NCBI GenBank assembly: GCA_964035015.1
Contig: OZ036014.1
Coordinates: 5,554,495-5,618,494 of the forward strand
Length of the DNA: 64,000 bases
Direction: 5' to 3'
DNA from: Corallium rubrum
Taxonomy: Eukaryota > Cnidaria > Anthozoa > Scleralcyonacea > Coralliidae
The translations under genes were made by a program, and so were the position numbers. This document shows, one piece after another, positions 22,271-58,059 of this stretch; position 1 is the first letter of the stretch; the number at the start of each line of letters is the position of its first letter. Under the pieces are notes generated by a model that made no database searches, had not been told where the DNA came from, and worked only from the letters and a program-made list of their open reading frames with translations.

Positions 22271-23346
22271 TATAATACCAGACTATTTTACTCTGTCTAA
22301 CGCACTCTGTCTAACACCAGACTATTTTACTCTGTCTAAGGCCAGACTATTTTACTCTATCTAATACCAGACTATTTTACTCTGTCTAACACCAAACTAT
22401 TTTACTCTGCCTAACGCCAGACTATGTTACGGTCTAACACGGCCAAACTATTTTACTCTGTTTAACACCAGACTATTTTACTCTGGCTAACACCAGACTA
22501 TTTTACTCTGTCTAACACCAGACTATTTTACTCTGTCTAACACCAAACTATTTTACTCTGTCTAACACCAGACTATTTTACTCTGGCTAACACCAGACTA
22601 TTTTACTCTGTCTAATACCAGACTATTTTACTCTGTCTAACACCAGACTATTTTACTCTGTCTAACGCCAGACTATTTCACTCTGTCTAATACCAGACTA
22701 TTTTACTCTGTCTAACGCCAGACTATTTCACTCTGTCTAATACCAGACTATTTTACTCTGTCTAACGCCAGACTATTTTACTCTGTCTAACATCAGACTA
22801 TTTTACGCTGTCTAACACCAGACTATTTTACTCTGTCTAACACCAGACTATTTTACTCTGTCTAACACCAGACTATTTTACTCTGTCTAACACCAGACTA
22901 TTTTACTCTGTCTAACACCAGACTATTTTACTCTGTCTAACGCCAGACTATTTTACTCTGTCTAACACCAGACTATTTTACTCTGTCTAACACCAGACTA
23001 TTTTACTCTGTCTAACACCAGACTATTTTACTCTGTCTAACACCAGACTATTTTACTGTGTCTAACACCAGACTATTTTACTCTGTCTAACACCAGACTA
23101 TTTTACTCTGTCTAACACCAGACTATTTTACTCTGTCTAACACCAGACTATTTTACTCTGGCTAACACCAGACTATTTTACTCTGTCTAACACCAGACTA
23201 TTTTACTCTGTCTAACACCAGACTATTTTACTCTGTCTAGCACCAGACTATTTTACTCTGTCTAACACCAAACTATTTTACTCTGTCTAACGCCAGACTA
23301 TTTTACTCTATTTTTTACTATGTTTTACTCTTTCTAACTCCAGACT
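22271..23346. repeat. 25-bp minisatellite, cluster 1
   Basis: About 43 tandem copies of a 25-bp unit, consensus CACCAGACTATTTTACTCTG followed by TCTAA. Variants are CGCCAGAC, TACCAGAC and CTCTGGCTAA. Cluster 2 is at 49930-50222. The GGCTAACGCCAGA variant matches the palindromic core of the hairpin repeats at 36750-36963. Confidence 0.97.
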
Positions 23347-24717: not shown

Positions 24718-26822
<2,105 letters not shown>

Positions 26823-45724: not shown

Positions 45725-47580
45725 GATTCGATGCAAAAAGAGGTAAAATTCTAAATGACGTACTCGATATCTTCACTAGTGAGGATATGGAAAATACGAC
45801 ACTGCATATTTCCTAGTACAACACTCGCATCTAATATAAGAACTAAAAATATGTTGCACCTAATTTTTCTTTAGGTCCAAATATAGTAGAATCTTACCTT
45901 TTTAGCCTAACTTGGAAAGATGCTAGTCCTTATAGATGTGGATTTTACTGTACCCTAGGGTCGGTTTTTATTATTACATTATTCCTGGCGTCGAGGTGCT
46001 TTAGAAGATAAAAAGGGATCTATATTTTTAAACAAAAGTACAATTCAACTATCTTGTGTGAACAAATCAAAAGTTTAATCTGAAATTGGAAAGCAAAACG
46101 TTCGGCCTTTAATATTTAATTGAAAGATAGATTCATGTTTATTTTAAGAATTATGTATTGTGTATATATATATATATACAGGGACCTGTTAGATTTGTCT
46201 TAAAAACAAATATATGGCTGGCTGGCGCGTTTTATTTTTGTTCAACTTAATGATTATTGAACGGGAGAAATTCTTTCTCATTGGGTGTTCGCGTTTCCAG
46301 CGTTCTCTTCGCAGCGGGGAGAAAAAAGTATTTCTTAAACAAAATACAGAGTTGTAGGTGCTTATCTTAATTGTACTTTATTTTTAACAGCATTAAAAGC
46401 CGTTATATACATTTTCTCGAACTCCTTAGCTAGTAATTAATGAACGACTCGTTCAATCCGAGACGTTGATTACACCACGTGATAGATATTGCCGTTAAAA
46501 GTACTTGGCGAAACACCTGCTCATCTAAGCCGGCTTATACGCCAATGTAGTAATCTGACATTTCCTGGGTGAGGAGGTCATCTATTTGTGACTCTTACGA
46601 AAACACTAATTCCAAACTGAAACGTACTACGGTTCGACAAAGATTCAGCTTATATTTGTTTTCCATTTTGCGCGCGTGCGCACAACTTCAAAAGTCGTTC
46701 AAAGTTGGTCCTAAATTTCGCGCTGCCCAAAATAAGGGCGTAGGGGTGGGGATGTTGACAATGTTGAGCTGAATTTTCGTCATGATCAAAGCACATCTGA
46801 ACATTGTTCCCAAGTGTTTCTCGAAGGAGGTCATGACCTTGTCTAGGAGCCGCCGTCTCCATTGGGAAACATTTTGGGTCTATCTGGAGCAGGTGTGGCG
46901 GCAGAGGGAGGGGGGGGGGGGGGCAGAGGGAATACAGCCCCCCTGTCGGGGAACTCTAGCCCCACTCCCCCATCGGGGAAAATTTACAGATGTGTCGGGG
47001 AATGATCTGGAAGAAAAATTTTATTTTTAACAATTGACAAAGAACTTTTTAACTGATTAAGCCAGACAAGTCAGTAATTAATGCTTTAATAGTGAAATAA
47101 AGCTCCTTTAGAAACACAGGTACGGTATATATTGCGTAGAAGCCAACAGTAATAATTACAACACAAATTTCCATCTTCTGTATTGAACGAAAATGGCACA
47201 CCAGGTCTTCAACAATTTTTTTTTTTATTGATAGCATGAAAATAGGTGCTGTAGCTTGTCAGTTATTGCGATAATTTTACGCGGAGACGTTGGGAAAAGC
47301 TATACCAGACGTTCATATTTTGAAAATTTTCCGAGGAAGGAGGCCCCCCTGTGTCGGGAATTTCTGGCTACCCCCTCCCTCTACAAACGGTGCGTTTTTC
47401 CGAAGCGGCGACGTCTGTTCTCGTTATTTTCCGAACACGTACTCGTAGCCAATCCGAAGCGTTCAGCGCTGTGTCGAGATTTTCCGACTGGAGGTTGTCG
47501 GTATAAGATTCGGAAGAAGCATTGTTTGTTTCGCATTTTGTTTTCAAAGCGTCACATGTTTAGCAAGGTAGTAGCGAATA
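45725..47580. other. Intergenic spacer, no gene recognised
   Basis: A short TA run near 46160 and a G run at about 46911-46922. A frame over 47256-47636 on the + strand overlaps the next gene out of frame and has no recognisable domain. The region just before 47581 should contain the promoter and 5' UTR of the pseudoprotease gene. Confidence 0.45.
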
Positions 47581-50500
47581 ATGACTGTAATGGGCAAAGA
47601 AAACGAAAACGAATCGTCGAAGAGCTGTCAAGTTGAAGACGTTTACCGCGCTTTGATAGCTGTCAAAGAGAAATCTTCCCAAAGCGGTTACAAAACCTTG
47701 GGGACGGGCTGTGCCGTTCGGACGGGAGACGTCTTTGGCATAAATTGGCGAAAAAAGTTCCACCTTCTGATCTCGTCTGCTCTGGTGTCCAAAGAGACAC
47801 TACAAAATCGAGACAACAGAGGCAAGTACCTCGGTGAATTCGAGAAAGGAAAGCCGCGAATTGAGTTGGAAAAGGCTTCGAATACGCTATTCAAGAAAGA
47901 GCGGAAAGATTTTCATTTTATTGCCATTGGTCGAGGTCGTTCTGGAAAGCTTGGCCATCATGTCTTGGAGATATGCCCTGGTGATCGCGAAGAAGTTCTG
48001 CGTGGGAAACTCGCTTGTTATGTTACTGTCGATTCGGGCGACAAGAACACCCATTCGTTCAAATCCCACGAAATCTCCTATAATCCTCAGCTGAAGGCTT
48101 TTGAAACGACAGATGAACTAGAGCATCACGAATTTCCGAGAGGAGCGCCCGTTCTGAATGCTTCTTACGAAGTTGTGGGCATCATTACCGGCGTAACCGA
48201 AGGCAAAAAGCTAGAAATATGTTTCATAAGCGATTTAAAACCAGGTTTGTGGCTTCACTCTTTTGCTTAAGTGTGCTTTCAGCTTAGAATTTGTTGACTA
48301 GGATGTCAAATCGAGTGTTTTAGTGTTTCAAGTTTGATTAAGGGAGTGACTATTTTTATAGTCAAGAAAATTATGTATATTTAAAAATGTATAGCAACGA
48401 CTCATCAAGGTTCCTCCTCTTCACACTAATCGCTTTCATGCATATATTAGTTATTTAAATCTATTTTAAAGGCAGGCCGATCTCGATTGTCATTCTCTAA
48501 AACCACTTGGCCAAAGTTTGTGTCTTACAGTAATCTCGAATGGAGAATCTCTTATATTATAATGATGATTACATGTTGTGATATTGCAGCGTTTGAGGCA
48601 ATATTTTATGTCATTAGAAGAGGTTATCGACATAAGGAGAGCAGAGTTTGATTTTTTTGAATAAATCAAATATCGTCTAGGTTCGACCTCGGTGAAATCA
48701 ATTTCTGCACGATGACAACATCGTGCGTCATTGCGATGGCTTCCTTTTGTTCCATTGGCTGTCTTTTGTTGCAATTAAAACGTTCTCGAAATCTACACCG
48801 AAACACGGCTTTTGTACGCGATTAGTTCACACAGGGCAGCAATCACTTGGTTTAAATAGACTCCTTGACTTGACATTCAAAAGAAATAGAGCCCTCCTTC
48901 TGTTTATTGACGAGAGCCAGCTAGGCGAAGCTTGTGTGGGCGTGTGCTTCTTTTGATCCCGAATATTCTCTACAGATCAAATTACTTTTACCGCCATTCG
49001 TGTTTCATAGATTCCTGCTTTTTGTAAGGATTCCCTTGTCTGTGAAATATCTCCGAAACTCTGTTCTCCTTCTCGTACTAAACAAACAAAACGAGCAAAT
49101 TTTCAAACGCTGGCCGAGAAATCTGCATACAGAAACGACGTAGTTTCATTCAGCGAATCGGCGGAAACGAAATGTAAATATTTTTGTTATGGCAAACCGT
49201 TGCCGATGACAGAATTGGCCATTTCTATTTTCAAGCACTCCATTAATGGCAATAACGTAGCAATATTTATAATAACTGTTGTCAGGAAGTAACATATCTT
49301 TAGGTGAATAATTTGTACATGCGCTGTTTTGCGTCTTTTACAAAGATATTTATATATAAATACCACTGTAACTGGAGTCGCAAAATTGATAGCCAGATGT
49401 CGCCAAAAAAATTAAGCTGACTGATAAGAAGTAAACAAGCACATTGGACCGCTTAGAAGGATCCAGTTTCAAAGATTTTTAAATTAAAAGTTTGTATGTG
49501 TACATGTAATGCTTTCTGTACAAGATGCCTTCAAGTTTAATTAGGAAGTTTTTCTTACAATGAGGGGAAAGAGCCAGCTGTACAGTTACTGTAAAACATA
49601 TTGTTTACCTGTGTTTATATAAATATCCAACTGACATGAAAATTATTGGAAGAATGGAAGGGCATGATTGGTTAACAGTGCTGACCACATGCACTTATGC
49701 ATTCTGTTTCCAAGGGATGTTTTGTGGTGTTTACCTAGTGAGCCCAGCTGAGTGCCCAAGCTAGCCCAGTCTTGGATGAACATTTTTATTAGGAAAATAT
49801 GCAACAAATGTTGGGTGATAAAGTGGGGCTTATTGCAGGGGGGGGGGGGGGGGCTTAAAGTCCATTTTAGCCCATCTCAAGTAGCTCTTTCACTGCTACA
49901 GTCAGCTTATATTATTTTACTTCAGCTTACACCAGATGATTTTACTATGTCTAATGCCAGACTATTTTACTCTGTTTAACACCAGACTATTTTACTATGT
50001 CTAACACCAGACTATTTTACTCTAACACCAGACTATTTTACTCTGTCTAACACCAGACTATTTTACTCTGGCTAACACCAGATGATGTTACTCCGTTTTA
50101 ACACCAGACTATTTTACTCTGTTTAACACCAGACTATTTTTCTCTGTTTAACACCAGACTATTTTACTCTGGCTAACACCAGACGATGTTACTCCGTTTA
50201 ACACCAGACTATTTTATTCTAATGGAGAAATCTGTAAACAGTGAAAGAGTTTATCATGCTTTTACAGTATCTCTGCCCAGTCTTGTTTTATTTCCTGCTC
50301 AATATTAATGTCTTTGTGATATTTTTAGTAGTTGTTGCTGAGCAACCCAAAGTGGAGGAGACAGTTGTGTCAAAAATTGTAGTTCAACAAGAGCCTGAAA
50401 GCCAACCAGAACTGCCAAAGACCAATGGTGAGATCCCCCAGAAACCACAAAGAGCAAATAAGATTACCAGGACTCAAAGCGAGAAATCTCCACCAGGGTA

Positions 50501-51285
50501 CTTGGGTACAGGAAAGGATCGAGATTTACGTCACTCTTTGAGGTACTCAAACCGCAATGGCTACAAGGTCTATTTAGGTAATGATCAGGAGGAGAAAGGA
50601 GTTCGAAGATGGCGTCCTAAAGGTTTTGGTGCAAAGAAGAACCTGTTCGAAGGGAAGGAGCCAGTGAAATTCCTTGGTGCGCGTCATATTACAAGCCCTG
50701 TTGCAAAAGAACGTCATACAAAGATTCTGTTTAACAAGCCAAGACCAAAATTGACCTCCAGTGTGAGCCTACCATGTCACCTACATGAAACTGGGAAAAC
50801 ATCAAGGCAGTTCAATGGTCTTGTCGATCGAAAGTTTGCTAGTACTTCAAACATACCTCATGGTAAGTTTGGGAAAATCATGTGTGTCCTTTGTTGACAT
50901 TGTTTTGGTAGTTGCTGTGATACCAGCTTTTGCTTGGTAATTATTATACTTTTTTTTTTGTGAAGGCACTTACTTGGTGAAGGATTTGCCTCATTCTGTC
51001 AAGAACAAACTTGCTGTATTCCTGGATGATCCAGCTAAAGGTCAATGCTGGCGAAAGGTGGCAATCCATTATCGAATCCGTGAAGCAGAAGTCAATGATC
51101 TTGCCTTTGGAGCCTCTCGACACATTTCTGGAAGTGAAACGAAAGCGTTGTTCCACAAATTGGAGTTAAAACAGGCAGACTTAACTGTCCTGGACTTGGT
51201 TGATTATTTACTCAGTGAGAAAGTCAATCGTGACATTCTGAACATGTTGCTACCTTACACATATGTAGGAATAAAATGTGCTTGA
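47581..51285 (+). CDS. Trypsin-like pseudoprotease fused to a death domain (predicted)
   Basis: Model: 47581-48244, 50329-50862, 50966-51285 (TGA); phases close, 505 residues. Residues about 25-220 look like the compact trypsin-like fold of HtrA/FAM111-type proteins: GTGCAVRTGDVF (41-52), a strand HLLISSALVS (61-70) where a catalytic His is expected but absent, and EFPRGAPVLNASYEVVGI (184-201), where the Gly-x-Ser-Gly position reads Pro-Arg-Gly, so the nucleophile Ser is replaced by Arg. It should be catalytically dead. Residues about 222-400 are a basic, Pro/Lys-rich linker. Residues about 405-500 are a death domain (LPHSVKNKLAVFLDDP, CWRKVAIHYRI, LFHKLELKQADLTVLDLVDY, NRDILNMLL). The donor CCAG/GTTTGT at 48245 is weak. 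Without it, exon 1 ends at TAA 48270 as a 229-residue protein, and the death-domain exons need another 5' exon. AATAAA at 51270-51275 overlaps the last codons. Domains are fairly sure; the fusion is an inference. Confidence 0.72.
48271..49929. other. Probable intron, no further exon recognised
   Basis: Between the pseudoprotease exon and the death-domain exons. A G run at about 49840-49852 is the only simple feature. No open frame resembling a known family. Confidence 0.5.
49930..50222. repeat. 25-bp minisatellite, cluster 2
   Basis: About eleven units of the same ACACCAGACTATTTTACTCT repeat as cluster 1 at 22271-23346, with variants CTCTGGCTAA and AGATGATGTTACTC. It lies about 100 bp before exon 50329-50862. 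Confidence 0.95.
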
Positions 51286-54689: not shown

Positions 54690-56545
54690 GTGTTTACAAA
54701 GTACAGCACAACATTGTTCATAAAGTGCAACACAACATTATCTATGTTGTGTAGCACAATATTGTTTAATACAGTTGCCAACACCGTTCATTGTTTACAG
54801 TTGGCAGCACAACGTTCACAGTTGACAACACAACATTGTTTACAGTTGACAACACAACATTGTTTACAGTTGACGGCACAACATTGTTCACAGTTGACAG
54901 CACAACATTGTTCACAGTTCACAGCACAGCATTGTTCACAGTTCACAGCACAACATTGTTCACACTTCACAGTTGTTACAGTTGACAGCACAACATTGTT
55001 CACGATTGACAACACAATATTGTTTACAGTTGACAACAACATTGTTTACAGTTGGCAACACAGCATTGTTTACAGTTGGCAACACAACATTGTTCACAGT
55101 TAGCAACACAACACTGTTTACAGTTGCCAACACAATATTGTTTACAATTGCCAATGCAACATTGTTTACAGTTGACAGCACAACATTGTTTACAGTTGAC
55201 AGCACAACATTGTTTACAGTTACCAACACAATATTGTTTACAGTTGACAGCACAACATTGTTTACAGTTGCCAACACAATATTGTTTACAGTTGCTAGCA
55301 CGACATTGTTTACAGTTACCAACACAATATTGTTTACAGTTGTCAGCACAACATTGTTTACAGTTGCCAACACAATATTGTTTACAGTTGCCAACACAAT
55401 ATTGTTTACAGTTGCCAGCACAATATTGTTTACAGTTGACAGCACAATATTGTTTACAGTTGCCAACACAATATTGTTTACAGTTGGCAGCACGTCATTG
55501 TTTACAGTTGTCAGCACAACATTGTTTACAGTTGACAGCACAATATTGTTTACAGTTGACAGCACAATATTGTTTACAGTTGCCAACACAATATTGTTTA
55601 CAGTTGCCAACACAATATTGTTTACAGTTGGCAGCACGTCATTGTCAGTTTACAGTTGTCAGCACAACATTGTTTACAGTTGCCAACACAATATTGTTTA
55701 CAGTTGTCAGCACAACATTGTTTACAGTTGCCAACACAATATTGTTTACAGTTGCCAACACAATATTGTTTACAGTTGGCAGCACAATATTGTTTACAGT
55801 TGACAGCACAGTATTGTTTACAGTTGCCAACACAGTATTGTTTACAGTTGGCAGCACGTCATTGTTTACAGTTGTCAGCACAACATTGTTTACAGTTGAC
55901 AGCACAATATTGTTTACAGTTGACAGCACAATATTGTTTACAGTTGCCAACACAATATTGTTTACAGTTGCCAACACAATATTGTTTACAGTTGGCAGCA
56001 CGTCATTGTCAGTTTACAGTTGTCAGCACAACATTGTTTACAGTTGCCAACACAATATTGTTTACAGTTGCTAGCACAACACTGTTTACAGTTACCAACA
56101 CAATATTGTTTACAGTTGACAGCACAACATTGTTTACAGTTGACAGCACAATATTGTTTACAGTTGCCAACACAATATTGTTTACAGTTGGCAGCACGTC
56201 ATTGTTTACAGTTGGCAGCACAACATTGTTTACAGTTGTCAGCACAAGATTGTTTACAGTTGCCAACACAGTATTGTTTACAGTTGGCAGCACGTCATTG
56301 TTTACAGTTGTCAGCACAAGATTGTTTACAGTTGCCAACACAGTATTGTTTACAGTTGACAGCACGGCATTGTTTACAGTTGCCAACACAGCATTGTTAA
56401 CGGTTGGCAGCACAACACTCTTCACAGTTGGTAGCGCAACATAGTTCACAGTTGACAACACAACATTGTTCACAGTTCACAGCACAACATTGTTCACAGT
56501 TGACAGCACAACATTGTTCACGGTTGACAGTACAACATTGTACTG
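54690..56545. repeat. 24-bp minisatellite ACAATATTGTTTACAGTTGC + CAAC
   Basis: About 75 units. Two main unit types, CCAACACAATATTGTTTACA and (GA/GT)CAGCACAACATTGTTTACA with GTTG linkers, alternate in higher-order blocks; a roughly 380-bp block starting near 55480 recurs near 55850. The edges use the TTCACAG variant instead of TTTACAG. AATATT and AACATTGTT make short palindromes in each unit. Frames on both strands are artefacts. Confidence 0.97.
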
Positions 56546-57306: not shown

Positions 57307-58059
57307 ATGAATTTGTGGCGTCGCTCTAAATCTTGGTTTCAGGAAGGTTTCTCGGCGCAAACGAAAGAAATCTTCGAGCCTCAAGACTTCCTTCGGCAAG
57401 AGAAGGAAATTCTGAACAAAAAATACGAGAGAGAAAGGAAAATTTTGAGCAAACATTATCATCAACAGCTGCTCGAAGCCAAGTTAAGATTTGACATGGA
57501 GTCACGTCGCTTAGACGACGAACATAATCAATTGAAAACTGATGCGGCAAGGGACGGGAAAGAGAACTGTCCTGAAGATTTTTTAACACTAGCGAAGAAG
57601 ACTATGGAGAACGATGGACTGGAATGGGATCCTTCGGACGATCTGAAGAGTTACAGCGAAGACGAAGTAAGCGATAGCTGGAGTCTTCAGACCGATCTGT
57701 CTCGGCGAAGTTCTTCGGTTTTGAGCCGTGCTCAGTTCGATGATATAGAATCCTGTGACAGTGCTTATCACTCGTTGTCCTTTGAGTTACAAAAAAAGAT
57801 TCTTCCCGACGAAGGAACTCGCACAATAGGCCTAGGAATAACCAGCTATCAACACACAGACGTCGAAAGAAAAGTGGAACAACTCCGATTGACCATACGA
57901 CAGGAAGTTGTTAAAGAATGCGAAGAAAAGTTTCGCCAGGAACGGAATTTTCTTTACTCCATCATCGACGAGTTGGAAGAAAATGTATCGTTGCTTAGGA
58001 AACAGAAAGAGGATATTGTAACAATATTTGAGGCTGGGGATAAAAGACTTCAAAATTAA
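57307..58059 (+). CDS. Intronless coiled-coil protein with KEN motif
   Basis: 250 residues from the ATG at 57307; an in-frame GTG upstream is not a credible animal start. Charged heptad-like helices at about 22-75 (DFLRQEKEILNKKYERERKI...) and 185-240 (VERKVEQLRLTIRQEVVKEC...) predict two coiled coils. They flank an acidic, Ser-rich middle (DPSDDLKSYSEDEVSDSW, DLSRRSSSVLSRAQ). KENCPED at 85-91 fits the APC/C KEN-box pattern with an acid at +6, and DSAYHS (151-156) resembles a DSGxxS phosphodegron with Ala for Gly. These suggest a cytoskeletal or cell-cycle protein with regulated turnover, but that is only motif inference. No signal peptide or membrane segment. I do not recognise the family. 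The composition and length argue that the frame is real. Confidence 0.75.
   Translation: MNLWRRSKSWFQEGFSAQTKEIFEPQDFLRQEKEILNKKYERERKILSKHYHQQLLEAKLRFDMESRRLDDEHNQLKTDAARDGKENCPEDFLTLAKKTMENDGLEWDPSDDLKSYSEDEVSDSWSLQTDLSRRSSSVLSRAQFDDIESCDSAYHSLSFELQKKILPDEGTRTIGLGITSYQHTDVERKVEQLRLTIRQEVVKECEEKFRQERNFLYSIIDELEENVSLLRKQKEDIVTIFEAGDKRLQN

Follow-up and report, generated by a model that had tools for sequence, protein, structure and literature searches.

The window, that is the whole 64,000-nucleotide stretch of Corallium rubrum contig OZ036014.1 that was analysed, carries on its forward strand a predicted gene of three exons, with the following features (a stroke in a donor motif marks the exon end):

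47581..48244 (+): exon 1; residues 1-221 and the first base of codon 222, with the start codon, a short N-terminal tail and the complete putative trypsin-like pseudoprotease domain
48245..50328 (+): intron 1; phase 1, 2084 bases
50329..50862 (+): exon 2; residues 222-399, a basic linker without methionine
50863..50965 (+): intron 2; phase 1, 103 bases, donor TG/GTAAGT
50966..51285 (+): exon 3; residues 400-505, a putative divergent domain of the death fold, and the stop codon
51270..51275 (+): AATAAA, a possible poly(A) signal that overlaps the coding end; its position fits the end of the gene

Joined together, the exons (664 + 534 + 320 bases) encode 505 amino acids and a stop codon without any internal stop, and both introns are of the GT-AG type and of phase 1; an initial annotation of this DNA was borne out in its exon coordinates, its frames and the agreement of the intron phases. 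A stop lies just 5' of the exon 1 ATG, since the open frame begins at 47575. The donor of exon 1 is AG/GTTTGT, and the acceptor of intron 1 is a NAGNAG site (AG at 50327-50328 and at 50330-50331), where the frame is kept with either AG. From stop to stop the exon 1 frame comprises 231 codons, which is longer than any frame in 200 sequences simulated with a second-order Markov model of the region (longest 201). The coding frame is also favoured by codon score in each exon (nulls reaching the observed score: 0/500 for exon 1, 3/500 for exon 2, the weakest of the three, and 0/500 for exon 3), the score being approximate because five of the ten in-genome death-domain loci in the training set were read on the wrong strand. 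The observed/expected ratio of CpG is 1.01 upstream of exon 1, 1.27 in exon 1, 0.69 in intron 1, 0.46 in exon 2 and 0.50 in exon 3, a profile that would be compatible with a promoter at the 5' end and methylation of the gene body. Searching the coral's own genome (474,352,983 bases in 312 contigs) with exon 1 returned the window only, as did searches with exons 2 and 3, and the gene is thus present as a single copy. Frames, splice sites and copy number can be read directly from the DNA, and from the same DNA a transcript running from exon 1 into exons 2 and 3 is predicted. The highest 19-residue mean hydropathy of the protein is 1.17 and a membrane segment is not evident; the protein is therefore likely to be soluble and intracellular.

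Alternatively, two genes might be present: exon 1 would then form a pseudoprotease gene by itself, with its end at 48270, and the death-domain exons would be part of a second transcript whose 5' exon lies within the 2.1-kb intron. Indeed, exon 1 alone contains a complete domain and its frame stops at 48268-48270, an AATAAA is found at 48660 inside intron 1, and the frame 50238-50894, which contains an ATG, extends 5' of the acceptor without a stop. However, the hydrophobic stretch read from this ATG is probably just the translation of a T-rich acceptor tract, the phases of the introns match, and exon 2 is free of methionine. In fact, the 505-residue protein has methionines at positions 1, 4 and 493 only, so that the death part requires a coding exon upstream, and the end of exon 1 offers the fitting phase. 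Against two genes also speak three further genes of this genome (L077, L078 and L080; see below), which join the same domain types in the same order and the same phase. We therefore consider two genes unlikely and keep to the model of one gene with three exons.

Apart from this gene, the window contains several repeats. A 25-base minisatellite is located at 49913..50220 (+) inside intron 1, and its unit is found in about 40 further copies at 22304-23309; tandem arrays were observed at 24719-26822 (about 2.1 kb of TGTT/CTGC/TTGT units) and at 54789-56541 (73 copies of a 24-mer). A single-exon open frame of 250 amino acids at 57307-58056 has a coding score above that of all 500 nulls; Pfam gave no match for it (E<=1).

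The protease-like and death-like domains

Pfam found no domain at all in the 505-residue protein at E<=10, and for the exon 1 domain searches of NCBIfam, PADLOC and PDB sequences were equally empty at this threshold. Exon 1 stays below the cut-off of PF13365 (Trypsin_2) and is absent from the eight PF13365 matches of the genome (E<=0.01). We compared it with two trypsin profiles, one made of five in-genome PF13365 loci and a broader one made of these and 76 of 80 bacterial relatives (81 sequences). With the broad profile exon 1 is reached by 5 of 1000 shuffled sequences in HMMER (E 5.7, 14 residues aligned) and by 1 of 300 in hhalign (over 16 columns at the serine motif), these matches of 14-16 residues covering the serine motif only; with the five-locus profile the corresponding numbers are 121 of 1000 and 35 of 300. 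In the trypsin-profile scan exon 1 takes rank 5 among the 432 frames of the window, and a single-sequence AlphaFold2 model of the domain has a mean pLDDT of 32.1, too low to read a fold.

The missing database match, the shuffles that reach exon 1 with the in-genome trypsins, its rank in the window and the low-confidence model are all points in favour of a reading in which exon 1 is not trypsin-like at all, its landmarks being coincidental and an unrelated domain being joined to the death domain. However, few shuffles reach exon 1 with the broad profile, the pair of domains is found again in three intact genes of this coral, and the landmarks of exon 1 are found in the order and with the spacing of trypsin-like proteases: GTG at residue 41, HLLISSALVS at 61, KDFHFIAI at 109 and EFPRGAPVLNASYEVVGII at 184. 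To quantify this, the fold landmarks of Trypsin_2 (GTG, His loop, DY, GxSGxP, VVAL) were scored as ordered blocks with spacing limits. In a first test 27 of 3000 shuffles reach exon 1 unmasked, with exon 1 scoring 4 bits as compared with 85-115 for four members of the profile, and 13 of 3000 reach it when the catalytic His and Ser columns are masked. A second test, which is not independent because it was re-cut after the first result was known (the changes concern the reference row, two spacing limits and the block borders, where the last two blocks were merged and three columns consisting mostly of gaps were removed), gives 27.4 for exon 1 and 13.2 for the best shuffle (0/3000 reach it). Nor is exon 1 reached in this test by any of 289 control frames from bacterial flanks (best 15.0), these controls being six-frame translations of bacterial loci and not all real proteins. 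Altogether, we regard a chance resemblance as improbable, and exon 1 as probably having a trypsin-like fold. The trypsin-like domain of the initial annotation is hence upheld by the ordered-motif tests, but not by the sequence databases, and its scores with the trypsin profiles are weak.

Both block tests pick the same register, which places Ala67 (Leu68 by eye) at the position of the catalytic His, Asp110 at that of Asp and Arg187 at that of Ser; in this best register the Asp of the triad is kept and His and Ser are replaced. This is consistent with the earlier proposal that His and Ser are lost and that an Arg occupies the nucleophile slot, and catalytic inactivity is predicted from their loss. 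One might thus ask whether the locus was once a functional trypsin–death gene, is now decaying and has no dedicated role, as its catalytic residues are gone and it is a single copy without a close relative in the genome. Yet its three frames are open and show coding bias over 505 codons, and around the lost catalytic sites the landmarks GTG, Asp110, RGAPV and EVVGI persist; a gene in decay appears to us a rather poor explanation, and we retain that of a maintained gene with a putative pseudoprotease domain.

The linker encoded by exon 2 comprises 178 residues and is basic, as had been suggested (34 K+R versus 18 D+E, pI 10.1). Exon 3 has no Pfam match at E<=10 and accordingly lies below the PF00531 (Death) cut-off; the window does not appear among the 80 genomic PF00531 places listed at E<=0.001, and NCBIfam, PADLOC and PDB sequence searches with exon 3 were empty as well. 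With a death profile built from 65 of these 80 places (ten loci and 55 further places), exon 3 scores 9.3 bits in HMMER as compared with 8.5 for the best of 1000 shuffles (0/1000 reach it, by a narrow margin), and 24.1 in hhalign as compared with 22.5 for the best of 500 (0/500). Among the 432 window frames of at least 50 amino acids its frame ranks first with this profile (8.9 bits; next frame 4.0). The full 505-residue protein scores 5.5 bits, a value reached by 3 of 1000 exon 3 shuffles. The pattern W-R-x-x-A and the helix that follows are shared with the in-genome death domains, and the first-helix stretch is similar to the death domain at L172 (E 0.0027 by phmmer, set of 61), a pair that BLASTP aligns in a different register (E 0.019). 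A single-sequence AlphaFold2 model of exon 3 is helical, with a low mean pLDDT of 43.5. Exon 3 thus very probably encodes a divergent death domain, an assignment we hold slightly more firmly than that of exon 1. The in-genome profile supports the death domain of the initial annotation, but to call it 'clear' was an overstatement, because no match was found in Pfam, NCBIfam, PADLOC or PDB. For both folds the support is statistical and falls short of proof.

Trypsin–death genes in the genome and in bacteria

A Trypsin_2 match upstream of a death-domain exon on the same strand was found at three places of the genome (scores with exon pieces joined):

L077, C8 8.84 Mb: PF13365 38.5 bits, PF00531 27.5 bits
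L078, C8 5.16 Mb: PF13365 60.8 bits, PF00531 35.3 bits
L080, C20 9.33 Mb: PF13365 52.2 bits, PF00531 24.5 bits

All three pass the curated Pfam cut-offs for both domains (27.6 bits for PF13365, 22.6 bits for PF00531), although the death exon of L080 is absent from the 80 listed PF00531 places. The catalytic His, Asp and Ser are retained in each of them, and the junction between protease and death domain is of phase 1, as read by hand from the splice sites at this junction only, the joins within the protease domain being approximate. The existence of these intact genes is a direct observation; judged by sequence, the trypsin–death architecture recurs in this genome and has at least three active-looking members. 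The window gene shares with them the domain order and the phase-1 junctions, with a linker exon placed in between. It differs in that its protease part is intronless whereas theirs contains introns, and in that its 178-residue basic linker has no counterpart. Sequence kinship with the three genes is not detectable, as own-genome searches with the window protein return the window only. We interpret the window gene as a putatively catalytically dead, far-diverged case of a recurring design. The domain pair is supported because all three genes show Trypsin_2 and Death above cut-off with the same junction phase. For the same reason the pair is not peculiar to the window gene, and the idea of an architecture unique to it was rejected; the architecture is less singular than the initial annotation had implied, and bacterial fusions of trypsin with death-like domains have been published (PMC8195603 and PMC7159879). 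A fusion of pseudoprotease and death domain is nevertheless the best reading of the DNA, with folds that are supported statistically.

Further loci were inspected. The C32 loci L170, L171 and L173, considered because an initial pairwise comparison had placed their death domains near the top, were rejected as trypsin–death genes, since no trypsin exon was seen by eye in frames of at least 75 amino acids. L079 has a trypsin domain and no death match in its 7-kb locus. L081 (C23 4.50 Mb) is a single open frame of 600 codons that encodes a FAM111-like protease with the serine motif GASGSP, and no death-domain match was found in the locus. The death-domain scan covered the trypsin loci L077 to L081, with L082 outside it.

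Searching PDB with a profile of four intact proteases of this genome returned V8/Spl-type proteases and glutamyl endopeptidases first (best E 8.7e-9), and human FAM111A (8s9l) further down (E 8e-6, 58 profile positions); 'FAM111-like' is therefore a loose name. Vertebrate FAM111 members are characterised by UBL domains or a PIP box in addition to the protease. FAM111A has been reported from a soft coral with its triad intact, and in the tree of the same review the His-Asp-Ser triad is conserved in FAM111 proteins, some of which have UBL domains and some of which, as in soft coral and lancelet, do not (PMC9798293). A death domain is not mentioned in the section of PMC9798293 on these proteins. 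The window gene resembles Trypsin_2 peptidases (PF13365; V8-like, FAM111) in the apparent layout of a trypsin fold, but unlike the FAM111 proteins presented in that review its product has neither the His nor the Ser, and it scores below the PF13365 threshold.

In bacteria, trypsin-like peptidases fused to death-like domains (bDLD1-3) have been described (PMC8195603), as have NucA-trypsin systems and a STAND protein with bDLD2 and trypsin (PMC7159879). Trypsin domains in effector position on vWA proteins are reported to be nearly all catalytically inactive and perhaps dominant-negative or peptide-binding (PMC7159879). Like the conflict systems outlined there, the window gene would combine trypsin-like and death-like domains in a single polypeptide; these systems differ from it in being bacterial and in having other partners (NucA, vWA-MoxR, STAND). 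No conflict-system partner was recognised beside the window gene in the two neighbouring frames that were scanned (Pfam, E<=1). Ten of the 80 bacterial relatives of the in-genome intact proteases were hand-picked and scanned with Pfam. Seven of them (L086, L087, L088, L090, L096, L112 and L121) are fusions, six with a nuclease domain and one with a PLD-like domain, and a death-like domain was detected in none of the ten. On viral contigs no relatives of window exons 1 and 3 were confirmed, and the same holds for searches with the in-genome trypsin alignment and with E. coli DegP as a yardstick. As for animals, no trypsin–death fusion is named in the titles and abstract openings of the papers listed in literature searches, nor is a metazoan one named in excerpts of PMC2575513.

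Possible role of the fusion protein

The reading that we propose, and to which we give about an even chance, is that of one three-exon gene for a soluble pseudoprotease–death fusion acting as a non-catalytic adaptor or decoy. Its product would comprise a dead domain of the Trypsin_2 kind (V8/FAM111-like; His and Ser lost, Asp kept), followed by a basic, flexible linker and by a death domain at the C-terminus. The dead protease groove may bind a peptide, a partner or an active relative without cutting it, and the death domain may enter or block a homotypic death-fold assembly, possibly one built by the three catalytically intact trypsin–death proteins (L077, L078, L080) or by other death proteins. 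FLIP and caspase-8 are a pseudo-caspase and its active relative, and the arrangement suggested here would be analogous to that pair. The likeness between window gene and FLIP(L) would lie in a dead protease domain combined with a death-fold domain and in the existence of active relatives. FLIP(L) differs in having a caspase fold and not that of trypsin, a DED and not a DD, and the reverse order of domains. For FLIP(L) as a pseudo-caspase with death effector domains see PMC7586951. A role of the window protein as a regulator, be it decoy or scaffold, is put forward tentatively; its binding properties, partners and pathway are conjectured from this arrangement, and ligand sensing, which the initial annotation had assumed, is a guess. 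Further-reaching, and in our estimate improbable, is the idea that the coral lineage possesses a protease–death signalling branch that is based on V8/FAM111-like trypsins and not on caspases, is akin to the bacterial conflict systems, and has in the window gene a dedicated pseudoprotease regulator.

If the fusion is transcribed, an animal would pair trypsin-fold proteases, active as well as dead, with death domains, as bacterial conflict systems do. FAM111-like proteases, which in humans are linked to antiviral defence (PMC9798293), would gain an older signalling context, and an immune or cell-death pathway parallel to that of the caspases would become testable in cnidarians. The data thus hint at a little-studied immune or cell-death pathway that is based on proteases.
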